Positions 5,585 through 16,235 of a stretch of DNA of 28,806 nucleotides are shown here, piece by piece. The first letter of the stretch is position 1. Each line of letters starts with the position of its first letter. The notes beneath the pieces are model-generated. The model had not been told where the DNA came from and ran no database searches. It saw only the letters and a list, made by a program, of their open reading frames with translations. A program made the translations under genes and the position numbers. The stretch is taken from IMG/VR virus record IMGVR_UViG_3300021138_000122, positions 1-28,806 of that record, one strand, 5' to 3'. The stretch comes from a virus.

Positions 5585-6115
5585 ATGAATATCTTCTACC
5601 TACACCACGCTGCCCCTCTAGCTGCCGTCATGCATTGTGACTCACACGTCGTCAAGATGTCACTAGAAACTGCTCAAATACTCTGTACCGTTCACCATAT
5701 CCATGGTAACGGCGAAAATGTTCCTTACAAATCCACTCACATCCATCATCCTTCAGTCCTATGGGCTGCTGAGTCCAAGGTTCAGTATATGTGGCTACAG
5801 AATCTAGGTGTTTACCTTTGCCGTGAGTATTACGTTCGTTACGGGCGTCGACACGCTTGCGAAAAATACATCAACGGCGTGCTATCAAAACCTCCTGAGG
5901 CGCTGATTAAAGGCAAGTACCTATGGCGTGAGCCTCCTCAGGCTATGCCTGATGACTGCAAGGTCGAGGGCGACTCTATCACCGCGTACCGCAAGTACTA
6001 CCAAAAGCACAAGTCCAGTTTTGCCAAGTGGCGCATCGGGGGCGTTCCAGCATTTATGCTAGGGTGTTATAATGAACACGCATCCGATTACTTAAAAGAG
6101 GTCCAATTCGCATGA
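5585..6115 (+). CDS. Conserved phage protein of the 'HCDxHVVKM' type, unknown function
   Basis: A 176-residue protein with MHCDSHVVKMSLETAQILCT near residues 16-35, then YKSTHIHHPSVLW, a WLQNLGVYLCREYYVRYGRRH helix and a closing AMPDDCKV...AYRKYY segment. This pattern is a recurrent phage family, also found in cyanophages, annotated as hypothetical. The invariant-looking H-C-D-x-H and later histidines hint at metal binding or catalysis on nucleic acid, which is inference. I use ATG 5585, because earlier in-frame starts lie inside the previous gene and would add a non-family N-terminus. The stop overlaps the transferase gene by ATGA, so it belongs to the cassette. Confidence 0.8.
   Translation: MNIFYLHHAAPLAAVMHCDSHVVKMSLETAQILCTVHHIHGNGENVPYKSTHIHHPSVLWAAESKVQYMWLQNLGVYLCREYYVRYGRRHACEKYINGVLSKPPEALIKGKYLWREPPQAMPDDCKVEGDSITAYRKYYQKHKSSFAKWRIGGVPAFMLGCYNEHASDYLKEVQFA
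6066..6073 (+). promoter_or_regulatory. Possible -10 element GTTATAAT before the transferase gene
   Basis: GTTATAAT lies 38 bases before ATG 6112. The same 8-mer occurs 28, 38 and 29 bases before ATG 7503, ATG 12142 and ATG 15392. Here it lies inside coding sequence with no clear -35 box, so coincidence is possible; the reverse complement also occurs once, at 6163-6170, inside a gene. Confidence 0.25.
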
Positions 6116-6888
6116 TTACTTATGATCCTAATCTACCTTGGCAAAAGTTTGCTTTGAACACGATTATAACCGACGATCTAGACCCTGTTTATGTGGCGTT
6201 ATCTAAATCTGATATTCCAGAAGCGATGCTTATGCGCTGGTGTACGGCTTTCGTGACATACTATCACATGGGCATCGCGTCTGAACTTTGCAGACTAGAA
6301 GGTGACGACTTCTGGCAAGCGCTTCTTAATGTATATGATACCGCTCCCCGCGCTGCTGAACGGCGGCATTTCAGGGGGCTAGCAGGCGTCAAAGCGATTA
6401 AGCAATGGATAAGCGAGTACAAGACGCCTGAGAAGTTCTTCGTGGCGTGCATGCAACCCTCTTTCATGGGGCTTCTTAAAAAGGGCATACCCCAGATCGG
6501 AACCTACTTTAGTTGGAAGTGCATGGACTTGCGTGAGGCGGTCTTTGGTTATGAGGTAAACTGGTCTGGGGCTGAAAAACACATGGTTGAGTTACCTAAA
6601 CAGGGGCTAGAAATCATATTTCCTGGTGTAAAGCCTGAAGTTGCGCTTCTTAAAGTAGTTGATGAAATTAGATGGATGAAAGCCCCACCGCGCTTTACTC
6701 GTGACTGCGGCGTGGCCGAAGCTGAAACTATCGCGTGTATGATCAAAGGCTACTATAAGAACGGTAAAGCGATAGGTGCAGATATCGTTGACAAGCGTCA
6801 AGCGCTTACGGGTTACGGCTTCGTGGCTGACGAGATTTTGAAGCATATGCCTAAAGAACCTTTCGATGGTACGGAAATAATCTCATGA
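6112..6888 (+). CDS. Amino acid:DNA transferase-like protein (thymine hypermodification)
   Basis: This 258-residue protein matches my recollection of the amino acid:DNA transferase family linked to hypermodified thymine in phages such as ViI and M6. Those enzymes attach an amino acid to phosphorylated 5-hydroxymethyl-uracil in DNA. Visible marks are YYHMGIASEL (50-59), PRAAERRHFRG (79-89), an IGTYFSWKCMDLREAVFG stretch near 130-148, and a C-terminal AEAETIACMIKG...IGADI segment. The fold is expected to be all-helical. It overlaps both neighbours by ATGA, and AGAGG upstream supports the start. The P-loop kinase next to it and the thymidylate-synthase homologue downstream support the assignment. 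The substrate amino acid cannot be read from sequence. Confidence 0.72.
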   Translation: MITYDPNLPWQKFALNTIITDDLDPVYVALSKSDIPEAMLMRWCTAFVTYYHMGIASELCRLEGDDFWQALLNVYDTAPRAAERRHFRGLAGVKAIKQWISEYKTPEKFFVACMQPSFMGLLKKGIPQIGTYFSWKCMDLREAVFGYEVNWSGAEKHMVELPKQGLEIIFPGVKPEVALLKVVDEIRWMKAPPRFTRDCGVAEAETIACMIKGYYKNGKAIGADIVDKRQALTGYGFVADEILKHMPKEPFDGTEIIS

Positions 6889-7478
6889 ACCATATCATAA
6901 ATATCAGGGGCACGAACGGTAGCGGTAAAACGACTGCCGCCCGTGCTATCATGGCTCGTTTGGCTCACATACGCGATTACACCACGCAGAATGGCGTCTT
7001 TACTCACGTTTACAAAACGCCCGACGGCTCGCCTGTGCTTTTTATCGGTAAGTATGATGAGGCTGCCTCAGGCGGGGTTGATCGTGTAAAGAGCGTTCGT
7101 GATCTAGTAGAAGCCGTGGCTGAGGTTTCAGTCTATGGGCACGTCGTCATGGAAGGCTTGCTGCTTTCTGGGCTACAGCAGTTGACTATGGATATCGCCT
7201 CCGCGAGCTCTAACTTCGCTCAGCTTCATGCGCTTACGTTAGATACACCGAAAGAAAAATGTATTGAACAAACCCTAAAAAGACGCGCCATCGTTGGCAA
7301 TGAAAAGCCGTTCGATCCTAAAAAATCACTCATACCTAAGTACCGCGCCGTCGAGCTCGCTCATGCCAAACTCAAGGCGAACGGGTACAACGCGCATATG
7401 GTTAGCCAGCGCGAAGCTGTAGTTATGGCGCTCACTCTCATTGGGATGAAAGAAGCAGCTGAGAACGTTATAATTTAA
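6885..7478 (+). CDS. P-loop kinase, putative 5-hmdU DNA kinase (copy 1)
   Basis: A 197-residue P-loop nucleotide-kinase-like protein. Walker A is GTNGSGKT (9-16) directly after the first strand. It also has IGKYDEAASGGVD (54-66), a VVMEG strand with E90, and an R-rich lid-like region (LKRRAIVGNEKPF). The 'GKYD..GG.D' signature and the transferase neighbour fit the phage 5-hydroxymethyl-dUMP DNA kinases, which phosphorylate 5-hmdU in DNA to activate it for substitution. It starts in an ATGA overlap with the transferase gene. The next gene is a clear paralogue with the same motifs in the same order. Another small-molecule kinase activity cannot be ruled out. Confidence 0.7.
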   Translation: MNHIINIRGTNGSGKTTAARAIMARLAHIRDYTTQNGVFTHVYKTPDGSPVLFIGKYDEAASGGVDRVKSVRDLVEAVAEVSVYGHVVMEGLLLSGLQQLTMDIASASSNFAQLHALTLDTPKEKCIEQTLKRRAIVGNEKPFDPKKSLIPKYRAVELAHAKLKANGYNAHMVSQREAVVMALTLIGMKEAAENVII

Positions 7479-7493
7479 ACTTTAATTAACGAA
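7467..7493 (+). promoter_or_regulatory. Promoter/operator-like dyad before second kinase
   Basis: GTTATAATTTAA (7467-7478) holds a perfect TATAAT 28 bases before ATG 7503. It is followed by TTTAATTAAC (7481-7490), which is its reverse complement apart from extra T bases, making an imperfect dyad. The 20-mer TTTAAACTTTAATTAACGAA at 7474-7493 recurs exactly at 15320-15339. The element spans the stop codon of kinase 1. No consensus -35 hexamer is visible, so it may need a phage activator or be a repressor site. Confidence 0.5.
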
Positions 7494-7502
7494 TTGAACA
7501 CT

Positions 7503-8063
7503 ATGCACAATGTAATTTCTATACGCGGCAGTAACGGCGCAGGCAAGACTTGGGTTGCTAAGAGAGTGATGGAACACGCTGCTCAAGATTTTGTAAAAAT
7601 TGCTGAAGCTAGTAATGGCGTTCTGTTGAACGTGTTTACAACCTTCGTCGCGCTAGGCAAATACGACCGCCCCACGGGTGGATGTGACACGATTAAAACG
7701 CCTCAAATGGTCTGGGACGCAGTCGTTGAAGCTGCTGAATATACAAACGTGCTGTACGAGGGTGTAATCGTTGGAAACGTATATGAGCCTACAATCATTT
7801 TAAACGCACGTCTTAAAACGATAGGCGCTCGCCTTGTCCCTATCTGTCTTAGCACTCCGTTCGATCAATGCGTCGCTAACGTGAACGCTCGTCGCGCAGT
7901 TGAAGGTAAAGGTCCAATTGAAAAAACTGATAACATATTGACTAACGACAAGAAGAACATTTCATCCGCTAGAAAGCTACACGCTGCTGGTTTAGAGCCT
8001 CACTGGGTCAGCTCTAATGACGCCGTACCTATCGTTTTAAGGGAGCTCGGCTACAATGTTTGA
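7503..8063 (+). CDS. P-loop kinase, putative 5-hmdU DNA kinase (copy 2)
   Basis: A 186-residue paralogue of the preceding kinase. It has Walker A GSNGAGKT (9-16), followed by W where copy 1 has T, LGKYDRPTGGCD (51-62), YEG with E86, and a lid-like VNARRAVEGKGP. Sequence between motifs is strongly diverged, so the duplication is old or the genes were acquired separately. I prefer ATG 7503 over TTG 7494, because it places the first strand and P-loop exactly as in copy 1; neither start has a good Shine-Dalgarno site. It has its own promoter-like element. It could act on a different base or pathway step, or the two could form a heterodimer; both ideas are speculative. Confidence 0.7.
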   Translation: MHNVISIRGSNGAGKTWVAKRVMEHAAQDFVKIAEASNGVLLNVFTTFVALGKYDRPTGGCDTIKTPQMVWDAVVEAAEYTNVLYEGVIVGNVYEPTIILNARLKTIGARLVPICLSTPFDQCVANVNARRAVEGKGPIEKTDNILTNDKKNISSARKLHAAGLEPHWVSSNDAVPIVLRELGYNV

Positions 8064-8952
8064 TACTAAGACAGATATGATTCGTAAGCTGGCTTACTTT
8101 GTGAGCGAGCGTGAGAATATCCTATACAATAAAGTAGTCGACCCAAAGCAGAAAAAGCCTTGGACTGAGGATGAGATATTGAAAAAGTATCGCTTCTGCA
8201 ATATCCATCGTAGGGACGATCGTGTATCCGCTTGGATTGTGCAGAATATCATAATTCCATACAAAAACCATGAATGGCTCTGGATTATGCTCTGCATTGC
8301 GCGCTACATCAACTGGCCTCCTACAATTCAGGATATCATGGACAAGGGCGAGTGGCCAGTCGATTCATTCAGCGCTACGGCCTTCGGTGAGATTATTGAC
8401 AAGCGTATGAAGCGCGGCAAGAAAACTTGGACAGGGGCTTACCTAATTACTGGCAGAAATATACCAAAAGACATGGGAAAAGGGTATTTTATCGCTAAAA
8501 ACATGATAGAACCTCTATTTTCCAACGAAACTATACCCCATTACCTAACCCACACGATGCCTAAAGATCGGTCCATAGAGGAAGTTTTGACGCTTTTTAA
8601 GGGTGTTTATGGGTGGGGAACTTTTATGGCGGGACAGGCGGTAGCTGATATGACGTATTGTCACTTATTAGACTGCGCAAAAGACTTGTACACGTTCGCG
8701 CCCATCGGTCCTGGCTCTACAAGGGGCTTGAACCGTATTTACGGACGTGCTCTAGAACAGATAGCCCATCAGGACACTTTCAATGAAGAATTGATAGAAA
8801 CCCTAGAAACGGCCAAAGGCTGGGCTACAATAGATCTTAACACTCTTACATTACATGATTGGCAGAACTGCATGTGTGAGTTTGATAAGTATATCCGCGC
8901 CTCTAATGGAGGCCGTCCTCGCTCCAACTACACCCCTGAAACTTCATTTTAA
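8056..8952 (+). CDS. Helical base-modification protein (aGPT-pyrophosphorylase / HMUDK-helical-domain type)
   Basis: A 298-residue helical protein. Marks are KYRFCNIHRRDDRVSAWI (44-61), GWGTFM (186-191) with following QAVADMTY, GPGSTRGL (218-225), and CMCEFDKYIR from 272. The pattern 'RF.N..R.DDRV', 'G..FM..Q...D', 'GPG...GL', 'CE.DKY.R' fits the related phage families named alpha-glutamyl/putrescinyl-thymine pyrophosphorylase and 5-hmdU DNA kinase helical domain. These act in replacing the activated group on hydroxymethyl-uracil. I cannot tell the two apart by eye. It overlaps the upstream kinase by 8 bases. GGAG about 11 bases upstream supports the start. In other phages this domain can be fused to a kinase; here it stands alone. 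Confidence 0.7.
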   Translation: MFDTKTDMIRKLAYFVSERENILYNKVVDPKQKKPWTEDEILKKYRFCNIHRRDDRVSAWIVQNIIIPYKNHEWLWIMLCIARYINWPPTIQDIMDKGEWPVDSFSATAFGEIIDKRMKRGKKTWTGAYLITGRNIPKDMGKGYFIAKNMIEPLFSNETIPHYLTHTMPKDRSIEEVLTLFKGVYGWGTFMAGQAVADMTYCHLLDCAKDLYTFAPIGPGSTRGLNRIYGRALEQIAHQDTFNEELIETLETAKGWATIDLNTLTLHDWQNCMCEFDKYIRASNGGRPRSNYTPETSF

Positions 8953-8962
8953 GGACACCATT

Positions 8963-9949
8963 GTGATAGCTTATAACGTCAGAAATGTAAACCACGCCTT
9001 CCCTCTAGAAATCAACGGCATCAAAGCTGCTGGTAAACCTAGAAGCTCTAGAAACGGACCTGTGATCGAATTCAGCGAACCCGTAGCCACAACCTACGCA
9101 CGCCCCATGGAGCGCGTTCTTTTTAATGAGAAGCGTAACTGTAATCCTTTCTTTCATTGCATGGAAGGGCTATGGATTATCGGCGGTTATCGTGATGTTG
9201 AATTCTTGGACTATTTCAACTCACAAATGAAAAAATACAGCGATGACGGCGATACGTTTTACGGCGCGTACGGCTATCGTTTGAGGCACGGACAAGACTT
9301 TGATCAGCTTGAAAATGCGATCCAACTACTGAAGGCTAACCCTGACGACCGTCGCGTTGTTACAACGATGTGGGACGCGGTTAAAGACTTAGGTGAGAAC
9401 AAACTCGATCATCCCTGCAATACTCATATCTATTGGAAAGTTCGTGACGGTGAGCTATACATGACTGTTTGCTGCCGTTCAAATGATTTATTGTATGGAA
9501 AGCTAGGAGCTAACGTTGTACATTTCAGTATGCTTCAAGAATATATGGCAGCCCGATGTGGTTACAAGGTCGGTCCTTATACGCAAGTTTCTGACTCGCT
9601 ACACGTTTACACTGACCTAGAAGTCTGGGACAAAGTCAAAGACACTTCGTACTTACCCTTGGATTATTATGAGTCTGACTACGCTGAGCTAGCAGTGAAG
9701 CCTTATCCATTGATGGAAGACTGTGACCATAATGACTGGAAAAAAGACTTGGAAAGCTTCATGCTAGACCCTCAGGACGAGCATATCTATAAAACGGCGT
9801 TCTTTCAAGACGTCGCTCAGCCGATGGCTATGGTTTGGTGGCAGCATAAAAGAGCGCGGAACGGCTTGATCTACGTCGATAGTATCAAAGCATCAGACTG
9901 GCGCTCGGCGTGCAAAGCGTGGTTGACTCCAAAAGAGAATGATAAGTAA
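8963..9949 (+). CDS. Thymidylate synthase family protein, probable dUMP hydroxymethylase
   Basis: A 328-residue thymidylate-synthase fold enzyme. The nucleophilic cysteine is in HPCNTH (C152). The phosphate-binding RSND is at 172-175, followed by LGANVVHFSMLQEY, and the nucleotide-binding region continues as DSLHVYTDLE. An asparagine (N184) sits where TS enzymes select uracil, while dCMP hydroxymethylases have aspartate, which points to dUMP as substrate. Whether the product is dTMP or 5-hydroxymethyl-dUMP cannot be proved here; the hypermodification neighbours favour the latter. I use GTG 8963 with AAGGA seven bases upstream; the longer in-frame extension to 8855 lies inside the previous gene. 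The stop overlaps the polymerase start as TAATG. Confidence 0.82.
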   Translation: MIAYNVRNVNHAFPLEINGIKAAGKPRSSRNGPVIEFSEPVATTYARPMERVLFNEKRNCNPFFHCMEGLWIIGGYRDVEFLDYFNSQMKKYSDDGDTFYGAYGYRLRHGQDFDQLENAIQLLKANPDDRRVVTTMWDAVKDLGENKLDHPCNTHIYWKVRDGELYMTVCCRSNDLLYGKLGANVVHFSMLQEYMAARCGYKVGPYTQVSDSLHVYTDLEVWDKVKDTSYLPLDYYESDYAELAVKPYPLMEDCDHNDWKKDLESFMLDPQDEHIYKTAFFQDVAQPMAMVWWQHKRARNGLIYVDSIKASDWRSACKAWLTPKENDK

Positions 9950-11745
9950 TGGACACACTCGCTTTTGACTTTGAAACGTACTACGACCCCGCAGGATATT
10001 CGTTATCAAAGATGACCTCAACTGAGTACATTCGTGACTCTAGATTTCAGGCTATCTGTTGCTCGTTCAAGTTTAACGACCAGCCTACCCATCTAGCTTG
10101 GGGTGAGGATATCGGTAAGGCATTTAAGCACTACGGCACCAACGTACGCGCTATCTGTCACAATGCTCAGTTTGATTGCGCCATCGCGGCAACGCACTAC
10201 AAGTGGTTTCCTGATGAAATCACCGACACTTTAGGGCTGGCTCGTTCTCAGCTTCGGTTAAACTCGTACAGTCTTAATTCTGTCGCAAAACACCTAGGAT
10301 TTGGAGAAAAACTAGACGGTCTTTCAGTTTCCAAAGGCAAGCGCCTAGAAGAACTACAAGACTATGAACGTGACATTTTGGGCGAATACTGTATCCGTGA
10401 TATTGAGCTCACAAAACGAGTCTATGATTTACTGATACAGAAGTTTCCTAAATTTGAGTTTCTACTACTGCAATGGACAATCAAAGCCGTTACAACGCCT
10501 ATGCTGGCGGTCGATTACAAGATGCTAGACCAGTACGTTGTTGAGCTAGACGAGCGCCGTGAGCAGATGCTTAAGGATGCAGGCATAACGATTGAGGTCA
10601 TTATGTCGAATCCTAAGTTTGCTGAAGCGCTGAGAAATCTAGGTGTAGAACCTCCAATGAAGACTAGTCCTAGAACGGGTAAACCGACGTATGCTTTTTC
10701 TAAGCAGGACAAAGGTATTACTGATCTATTGAGCTATCCTGATGTAAAAGTTCAAGCGATAGTTACAGCTAGATTGAAGTTGAAGTCTACTATTGAACAA
10801 ACTAGAGCTGAAAGACTCAGCGCGATAGGTAAGACAGGCTTACTTCCAGTACCGTTGATATACTACGGTGCTCATACTGGACGGATGAGTGGAGGGGGCG
10901 GTATAAACTTACAGAACCTGACTCGCGGTTCAAAGCTACGCAAGGGCATAATCGCCCCTCCTGGAAAGGCGCTAGTCGTGGGTGATAGCTCACAGATTGA
11001 AGCTCGCGCTTTGGCCTACGTTGCTGGGCAACGTGACTTGATGCAGGTGTTTAGGGATGGACTAGACCCGTACTGCGATATGGCGTCTTTCATCTACGGT
11101 AGAACAATTACTAAGTCCGATGAAAATGAGCGCTGGCTAGGGAAAGTTACAGTGCTAGGCGCGGGGTATGGTATGTCCGCTAGAACGTTCTTTGAGTTTC
11201 TAAGGACGCAAGGTAAACCTCTAACGATGGATATGTGTGAGCGAGCGATTAACGCGTACAGAAAAAAGAATGATCAAATCGTTCAGTTCTGGGATACTTG
11301 TGACAAGTCATTACCGATGATGGTAGAAGGCTTGGAAAGACCTTTGAGCGCTGAAGTTCATGTGATGACGGGTAAGAACACGATCACGTTACCAACTGGT
11401 TTACCCTTATTCTACCCTGATTTAAGCTACAGCTCTAGTGAGAGGCGGTATAGCTACGCTGCTCGCGGTGAAGGGCGTTCAGGTATCTATGGCGGTCTAA
11501 TCACAGAGAATATCGTTCAAGCGCTGGCTAGGCATATCGTCATGGAGCAACTTCTCATTGTACATCAACGTTTCCCCGTCGCTTTAACTGTACATGATGA
11601 GTTGGTAGCCGTAGTTGATGAAAAGGACGCTGAAAAAGCGCGTGATTATATTGAAACCGTCATGTCAACTCCTCCTAAGTGGTGGGTTGATTTACCTGTA
11701 AAGGCTGAGGTCAAATTTGGAACTGTATATGGAGAAATCAAATGA
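9949..11745 (+). CDS. DNA polymerase, family A, with 3'-5' exonuclease
   Basis: The replicative polymerase of the phage, 598 residues. The N-terminal DnaQ-like exonuclease has FDFET with D7 and E9 and a later YCIRDIELTKRV segment containing the Exo III aspartate. The polymerase domain has TGRMSGGGGINLQNL, motif A GDSSQIEARA (D346), a motif B region RWLGKVTVLGAGYGM with K399, and motif C VHDE (548-551, D550). All catalytic carboxylates are present. The length is typical of compact phage enzymes lacking a 5' nuclease domain. If the thymine pool is replaced by 5-hmdU, this enzyme must accept the modified triphosphate. It is coupled by overlap to both neighbours. Confidence 0.95.
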   Translation: MDTLAFDFETYYDPAGYSLSKMTSTEYIRDSRFQAICCSFKFNDQPTHLAWGEDIGKAFKHYGTNVRAICHNAQFDCAIAATHYKWFPDEITDTLGLARSQLRLNSYSLNSVAKHLGFGEKLDGLSVSKGKRLEELQDYERDILGEYCIRDIELTKRVYDLLIQKFPKFEFLLLQWTIKAVTTPMLAVDYKMLDQYVVELDERREQMLKDAGITIEVIMSNPKFAEALRNLGVEPPMKTSPRTGKPTYAFSKQDKGITDLLSYPDVKVQAIVTARLKLKSTIEQTRAERLSAIGKTGLLPVPLIYYGAHTGRMSGGGGINLQNLTRGSKLRKGIIAPPGKALVVGDSSQIEARALAYVAGQRDLMQVFRDGLDPYCDMASFIYGRTITKSDENERWLGKVTVLGAGYGMSARTFFEFLRTQGKPLTMDMCERAINAYRKKNDQIVQFWDTCDKSLPMMVEGLERPLSAEVHVMTGKNTITLPTGLPLFYPDLSYSSSERRYSYAARGEGRSGIYGGLITENIVQALARHIVMEQLLIVHQRFPVALTVHDELVAVVDEKDAEKARDYIETVMSTPPKWWVDLPVKAEVKFGTVYGEIK

Positions 11746-15391: not shown

Positions 15392-15898
15392 ATGACTGTA
15401 AAACATAGTGTAATCAAAACTGTTAGAAACGGTAACGCTGTAAAACGATGGCACACGCGTCGTATGATAACGACTGATACTGTAGGTGAGCATACAGCAA
15501 ACGTCATAATTATCTTACTAATGTTAGAAGGTACGCCTAGTAAATCTCTAATCTACGCTGCGCTTTTACACGATACAGCCGAGCAGTGGGTAGGCGATAT
15601 ACCCGCTACCGCTAAGTGGAGTTCGCCTTCTCTTAAACTCGCTTGTGATAACTTAGAACGCACGATGCTTGAGGATAACTATCTAGCCTTACCTAATCTA
15701 ACCGAGGCTGAGCAGCTAGCACTAAAGTGGGCTGATATGCTAGATCTTTTGTACCGTTGCATGGATGAGATCGAGCTTGGTAATACAACGATGCGTGAGG
15801 TTTTTGATCGCGGTGTTACATATCTTAGGGGTCTAAGCGAGCACAAGCAAGGGCTAATTCTGTTGGAAAACTTAATCAAGGAACGCAATGATGTCTGA
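15392..15898 (+). CDS. HD-domain 5'-deoxynucleotidase, YfbR-like
   Basis: A 168-residue HD phosphohydrolase. It has RW at 19-20, GEHT with H34, LLHDTAE with H60/D61 and E64, GDIPATAKW, and a later LKWADMLDLL aspartate. The RW pair before the first histidine matches E. coli YfbR, where it contacts the deoxyribose of 5'-dNMPs, so a dNMP phosphatase activity is likely. In a phage with modified thymine such an enzyme could drain dTMP and favour 5-hmdUMP incorporation; that link is inference. It has its own promoter-like region, which shares a 20-mer with the second kinase. Confidence 0.82.
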   Translation: MTVKHSVIKTVRNGNAVKRWHTRRMITTDTVGEHTANVIIILLMLEGTPSKSLIYAALLHDTAEQWVGDIPATAKWSSPSLKLACDNLERTMLEDNYLALPNLTEAEQLALKWADMLDLLYRCMDEIELGNTTMREVFDRGVTYLRGLSEHKQGLILLENLIKERNDV

Positions 15899-16235
15899 TC
15901 TTATAAAGGGTTTGAACGGTATCACCGCTGCTGATATCAATGGTTTAATCAAGGCTGAAAAGTCTTATGGTGATTCTTGGAAAAAGCGAGGGGGCGTGGG
16001 CGCGTTCATGATGCTTGCTCGTAAGTGGGATAGGCTTGAAAATCACGTCAAGGCTTTCAACTACGATATCTTTGAGGCAGCTTTTGCTGACGTTCGCCCT
16101 GAGGGTATAATCGACGATATTCGTGACTTACGTCGTTATTTGCTTTTAGTTGAGGATCACGTGGGTGGTAAGTTTATTCCGCAACTTGATAAAGAAGGTG
16201 AGGCTGATAGTGGGTACACTAACCAAGATCGGTAA
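15888..16235 (+). CDS. Conserved phage protein of the 'YGDSWKKRGGVGAFMM' type
   Basis: A 115-residue protein with EKSYGDSWKKRGGVGAFMML and ARKWDRLENHV, then DIFEAAFADV and DDIRDLRRYLLLVEDHV. This is a well-conserved hypothetical family in phages and prophages, of unknown role as far as I know. AAGGA before tandem ATGs at 15888 and 15891 supports the start, though either ATG could be used. It overlaps the HD nucleotidase by 11 bases, so the two are probably co-translated. Confidence 0.82.
   Translation: MMSDLIKGLNGITAADINGLIKAEKSYGDSWKKRGGVGAFMMLARKWDRLENHVKAFNYDIFEAAFADVRPEGIIDDIRDLRRYLLLVEDHVGGKFIPQLDKEGEADSGYTNQDR

Follow-up and report, generated by a model that had tools for sequence, protein, structure and literature searches.

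We find that the phage behind IMG/VR record IMGVR_UViG_3300021138_000122 very probably encodes a whole core thymidine-hypermodification pathway, judging by the genes it carries. The window analysed here is the whole record, a podovirus-like genome fragment of 28,806 bp with its replication genes on the + strand and its virion genes (SU10-type adaptor, transglycosylase, tail proteins) on the - strand. Between the primase-polymerase and DNA polymerase A (PolA) genes lies a block of six genes, whose starts and stops overlap or nearly so, encoding a phrog_624 protein, an amino acid:DNA transferase (ADDT), two P-loop proteins of the 5-hydroxymethyldeoxyuridine (5-hmdU) DNA kinase family (K1 and K2), a helical protein (HEL) and a thymidylate synthase (TS) homologue. 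The cassette shows every testable feature of the known thymidine-hypermodification kind and lacks those by which the M6/PaMx11 glycine sub-type is recognised. The genes concerned are as follows.

5585..6115, + strand: phrog_624 protein of 176 aa, whose gene opens the coupled block (PHROG 624, E 4.8e-51)
6112..6888, + strand: ADDT of the GxYFxWK type (PF18724, E 2.8e-8)
6885..7478, + strand: K1, P-loop 5-hmdU DNA kinase family (PF18748, E 6.6e-7)
7494..8063, + strand: K2, second P-loop paralogue of the 5-hmdU DNA kinase family (PF18748, E 1.2e-10)
8056..8952, + strand: HEL, HMUDK_hel (aGPT-Pplase1) helical protein (PF18723, E 8.2e-42)
8963..9949, + strand: predicted TS-family dUMP 5-hydroxymethylase, GTG start (Thymidylat_synt PF00303, E 6.8e-23)
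9949..11745, + strand: PolA (PF00476, E 1.8e-25), its start overlapping the TS stop codon
15392..15898, + strand: HD-domain 5'-deoxynucleotidase, predicted dTMPase (PF12917, E 1.2e-15)
15888..16235, + strand: small protein adjoining HD, 50% identical to Pam3 gp54 (blastp E 1e-32)

The initial annotation had described a thymidine-hypermodification cassette of five genes, and this was right in outline, the gene content and order matching the PaMx11 and YuA/M6 cassettes. All five proteins it named are present and adjacent; the stretch holds six genes, however, the additional one being that of the phrog_624 protein. The profile check of the transferase-like and helical proteins had been set beforehand as the point on which the reading could fall, and both proteins exceed the curated Pfam cut-offs, as do K1, K2 and TS. 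The ADDT scored 34.2 bits against a cut-off of 26.2 for PF18724, and HMUDK_HMUD1 (PF18748) was matched twice above its cut-off of 27, with 29.5 bits for K1 and 41.6 for K2, in line with the two kinases claimed; the GKY..GG.D motif is found in both. The motifs PRAAERRHFRG, GKYDEAASGGVD, GKYDRPTGGCD and KYRFCNIHRRDDRV are as earlier described. HEL is 36% identical to Pam3 gp50 and to RHph_I65 gp8, and a distant homology between HEL and the ADDT found no support in a profile comparison (probability 0.5%).

The TS homologue is 43-45% identical to PaMx11 gp51 and YuA gp17, and the nearest solved protein is the CMP hydroxymethylase MilA (5b6d). In the alignment to B. subtilis TS and MilA the uracil-selecting Asn, already pointed out in the initial annotation, matches that of the B. 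subtilis enzyme and stands where MilA has Asp, and a Cys is found at the nucleophile position; because of these two residues dUMP is the expected substrate. The start at 8855 given by the mechanical list of open reading frames (ORFs) is wrong, as the GTG at 8963 after AAGGA gives 328 aa, the same length as the L002 orthologue.

Further downstream, the HD nucleotidase is homologous to HD proteins near TS in PaMx11, YuA, P26218, Pam3 and RHph_I65, and we suggest that it may act as a dTMPase keeping T out of the pool. In phiW-14-infected cells dTTPase activity has been reported and no dTTP (PMC5977210), which fits such a role in excluding thymidine nucleotides. The small protein at 15888-16235 directly follows the HD nucleotidase in the window and also in Pam3, where gp54 likewise stands behind TS-HD. 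We rejected ordinary nucleotide metabolism as a full account of the cassette, since neither the ADDT nor HEL is known to take part in it.

The K1-K2-HEL-TS run is kept in 17 contigs, counting the window and its most distant relative, L168. The relatives form clade A, with cassette proteins 70-93% identical, and clade B, with HEL about 55% identical; the order ADDT-K1-K2-HEL-TS-PolA is kept in both wherever the contig reaches far enough, with PolA after TS and the phrog_624 gene ahead of the cassette. Every gene tested is under purifying selection, with ratios of nonsynonymous to synonymous substitution (dN/dS) of 0.03-0.14 where computable (0.035-0.043 for K2 and 0.04-0.12 for K1), values that are rough as dS is high. 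No stops or frameshifts were seen in the orthologues compared. The relatives were found only by way of their proteins, a DNA-level search of the phage collection with the window giving no match, and a search of bacterial genomes for a host assignment gave distant matches only, at 36% identity or less.

We suggest the following route. The TS homologue would make 5-hydroxymethyl-dUMP, as its family and residues indicate, the HD nucleotidase would lower dTMP, and PolA would incorporate hmdU. K1 and K2, with HEL, would phosphorylate hmdU in replicated DNA, perhaps to pyrophosphate, and the ADDT would then put an amine or amino acid in place of the phosphate, both steps being known for these families. 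The attached group would probably be the final product, left unprocessed, because known kinds of tailoring gene are absent, and an untailored adduct would be the simplest such product. The bulky modified base would take the place of thymine in the phage DNA and probably serve resistance to host nucleases.

The absence of tailoring genes, earlier noted for the window, extends to two relatives about 51 kb long. Near-complete relatives were needed because the window is a fragment, in which absence alone proves little, and the full records of G002 (clade A, 51.6 kb) and G008 (clade B, 51.3 kb) were used. Searches with Pfam models (PF00291, PF04055, PF01266) and with profiles from the M6 and PaMx11 enzymes detected no tailoring genes of the pyridoxal phosphate (PLP), radical S-adenosylmethionine (radical-SAM), flavin (FAD) or acetyltransferase kinds in the window, G002 or G008. 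Neither PLP plus radical-SAM enzymes, as in the M6 type, nor a FAD lyase with acetyltransferase, as in the PaMx11 type, is thus seen in these records, of which G002 and G008 are not proven complete. Truncation of the window alone therefore does not explain the absence. Those larger ORFs of G002 that were scanned serve replication or the virion, among them terminase and an ADP-ribosyltransferase-domain protein. An ADP-ribosyltransferase PolyVal domain (PF18760, E 5e-13) is found in the protein encoded at L018:15892-17637, behind the terminase of G002.

To place the transferase of the window we built a tree of 75 ADDTs. In the M6 and PaMx11 pathways the ADDT attaches glycine, and N-alpha-glycyl-thymidine is an intermediate. 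One clade of 41 (support 100/98) holds YuA and PaMx11, and the M6 enzyme carries the same motif. Beside the conserved Gly130, Lys136 and Asp139 this glycine clade has W-I-x-F (100, 90 and 88%), read as GPWIxFK, against Y-F-x-W (100, 100 and 92-100%), or GxYFxWK, outside it. PLP, radical-SAM, FAD or acetyltransferase genes are nearby in 36 of the 41 glycine-clade cassettes (the remaining five include four with short flanks) and within reach of none of the 34 ADDTs outside, 12 of which have short or unrecorded flanks; Fisher's test gives p 3e-16 for this difference, which by kinship is essentially one deep contrast and not 75 independent cases. Pfam searches of 19 virus records outside the glycine clade agree, apart from L145. 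There a radical-SAM protein whose Cys-rich C-terminus is SPASM-like (L145:3989-5053) lies 1.7 kb upstream of a non-glycine-clade ADDT, and it may be a tailoring enzyme of another sort. The remaining genes that recur around the ADDTs of this side (DUF3310-like, helicases, nucleases) seem to serve replication in general and gave no further tailoring candidate.

The ADDT of the window reads GTYFSWK and falls outside the clade of 41, on the side that also has phiW-14 and Rhodoferax phage P26218. As it lies on the side of phiW-14, which has alpha-putrescinylthymine, the attached amine need not be glycine, and the tree lends some support to the earlier view that the final base may be new. Among the members outside, only phiW-14 is of known chemistry, provided that its single ADDT, gp109, makes alpha-putrescinylthymine. 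The serine (ViI) type is not indicated either: a profile of the window, M6, phiW-14 and related ADDTs had no significant match to ViI-type proteins, with both sets alike matching PF18724. That the ADDT nevertheless uses glycine, leaving untailored N-alpha-glycyl-thymidine as the final base, seems to us unlikely on balance and still a reading to be reckoned with. The solved structure nearest to the ADDT is a glycinyltransferase (8z2m, E 1.2e-21), followed by another ADDT (25qc), and the window protein has every one of the 23 columns that do not vary among 15 ADDTs. A best match in the PDB, however, mainly mirrors which ADDTs have been solved, and the enzyme stands outside the glycine clade with a different signature by the invariant Lys and Asp.

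The second distinctive feature is the pair of kinases, which the initial annotation listed but did not mark as unusual. K1 and K2 both hold all columns invariant over 25 kinases, including Walker A and GKY..GG.D, and keep them in clades A and B. No second copy was found in isolates: tblastn of K1 and K2 against 50,697 phage records matched 342 and 340 records respectively, at one place each, and PF18748 occurs as a single copy in each examined isolate that has the kinase. Tandem kinases do recur in uncultured phages outside the window group (L057, L146/L147, L170/L173, L100, L219 and L240). At L057:1614-3554 three P-loop kinases stand in a row between ADDT and HEL, with the ADDT near the start of the locus. 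In the kinase tree K1 and K2 form two long-stemmed clades (SH-aLRT 100 and 99) older than the split of clades A and B; a recent duplication was rejected, since each is an old supported clade found in both phage clades. HEL and the P-loop kinase are separable, as phiW-14 has HEL with no detectable P-loop kinase, and the kinase occurs without HEL in P26218 and in the Manatee Spring phage. It should be noted that homologues of the 5-hmdU DNA kinase carry the label 'terminase small subunit' in RefSeq phage records (e.g. NC_028770, NC_013693, NC_019925) and in PHROG 800, which is a widespread naming error.

There are hints that the roles of K1 and K2 differ, as K1 of L168 has lost part of the P-loop (STNGGGKT) and has GGYP in place of GKYD. 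By analogy with phiW-14, for which a pyrophosphoryl intermediate and the origin of putrescine have been described (PMC5977210), the two kinases might act in succession to give a pyrophosphate leaving group, a reading that we favour only tentatively and put somewhat short of an even chance. It is less likely, though conceivable, that they serve different sequence contexts and so widen coverage; the M6 kinase has a reported preference for TG or TC, partly unpublished in the source (PMC6449724), and phage T4 gives a precedent for paired modifying enzymes each with a separate benefit (PMC13216743). We find it improbable that only one of them acts on DNA and the other is a nucleotide kinase raising hmdUMP towards hmdUTP. 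The weak likeness to thymidylate-kinase PHROGs and the greater divergence of K1, with its altered motifs in L168, speak for such a role, yet both proteins exceed the PF18748 cut-off with the invariant residues of the family kept in both clades, and single-kinase phages do without a second kinase. An obligate heterodimer of subfunctionalised duplicates we regard as equally doubtful: K1 and K2 are always adjacent and co-conserved in the window group, and a single K1+K2 clade is compatible with the data (approximately unbiased test, AU p 0.68), but each has its own complete active-site motifs and single homologues suffice in isolates.

Several points weigh against the pathway as we propose it. 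The cassette might be decayed or make 5-hmdU only, with no hypermodified base formed; this we consider very improbable, given the intact orthologues, the purifying selection described above and the long-term joint conservation of ADDT, kinases and HEL. As neither G002 nor G008 ends in terminal repeats, part of either genome may be absent from the record, and tailoring of an unfamiliar kind, or by host enzymes, would escape the searches. The phiW-14 ADDT groups with nACB2 only, on long branches, and the pyrophosphate of that phage, which has no detectable P-loop kinase, does not come from a K1/K2 pair.

Two further genes might belong to the pathway. A protein with the SAM-methyltransferase fold (motif VLEVFCGFGMST; Foldseek E 1.6e-8 to Trm1 3axs and matches to hundreds of methyltransferases) is encoded in the interval from phrog_624 to ADDT in clade B, and in L168 immediately ahead of the ADDT, at these positions.

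L009:4893-5663, SAM-methyltransferase-fold protein
L011:5187-6023, SAM-methyltransferase-fold protein
L046:5280-6044, SAM-methyltransferase-fold protein
L168:354-1100, SAM-methyltransferase-fold protein

Weak relatives of it are found inside other ADDT/HEL cassettes (L145, L176, L167, L093, L230, L074, L140, L153 and L180), and it is a candidate for a new tailoring family. The phrog_624 protein, for its part, recurs beside ADDT or kinase in unrelated cassettes (L143, L159, L149, L158, L167, L176, L183 and L153) and may be a pathway member. Its AlphaFold model (pLDDT 85) suggests a T4 endonuclease V-like fold, with a middling VIA-align Z of 7.6 over 117 residues to 1enj; Foldseek alone found no relative with this model.

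Further, we speculate that the GxYFxWK ADDTs are an uncharacterised class attaching a non-glycine amine to hmdU pyrophosphorylated stepwise by K1 and K2, giving an undescribed thymidine derivative, and that the base of the sister clade is further methylated by the SAM-methyltransferase-like protein; taken as a whole we think this rather unlikely. The amine attached by an ADDT is not yet readable from sequence, and here the split in the tree, with its short motif, between ADDTs of the glycine side, accompanied by tailoring enzymes, and those of the other side, which have none, makes specificity directly testable. With the paired kinases one can likewise ask whether phosphorylation is stepwise or whether the two enzymes share out the sequence contexts, and so address the pyrophosphate route of phiW-14. 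Cassettes of this kind might also serve as tools for placing reactive amines in DNA.

Among known systems the nearest isolates are Rhodoferax phage P26218 and the Manatee Spring podovirus MW202557, whose ADDTs are 34-35% identical to that of the window; like it they have P-loop kinase, TS, HD and a GxYFxWK-type ADDT and no known tailoring gene, but they have one kinase and no HEL. Pam3 and RHph_I65 have the cassette genes and order of the window, as has P26218 minus HEL. Pseudomonas phage PaMx11 carries ADDT, kinase, HEL, TS (43% identical) and HD in one run; unlike the window it has one kinase, a FAD oxidoreductase and an acetyltransferase between ADDT and kinase, and a GPWIxFK ADDT. The Pseudomonas phages M6, YuA and Lydia share ADDT, kinase, HEL, TS and HD just upstream of PolA, but have PLP and radical-SAM enzymes, one kinase and a glycine-type ADDT. 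Delftia phage phiW-14 resembles the window in its HEL and in an ADDT with Y-F-x-W outside the glycine clade, whereas its genes are scattered and no P-loop HMUDK kinase was found in it. In the HTVC023P-type Pelagiphage podoviruses TS and aG/PT-PPlase1 (HEL) lie near PolA, sometimes with a 5'-deoxynucleotidase (PMC9599517), and there, unlike in the window, TS and aG/PT-PPlase1 alone are described as the hypermodification pair. None of these systems combines paired kinases with HEL and a non-glycine-clade ADDT, as the window does, and this set of features is conserved in both phage clades.

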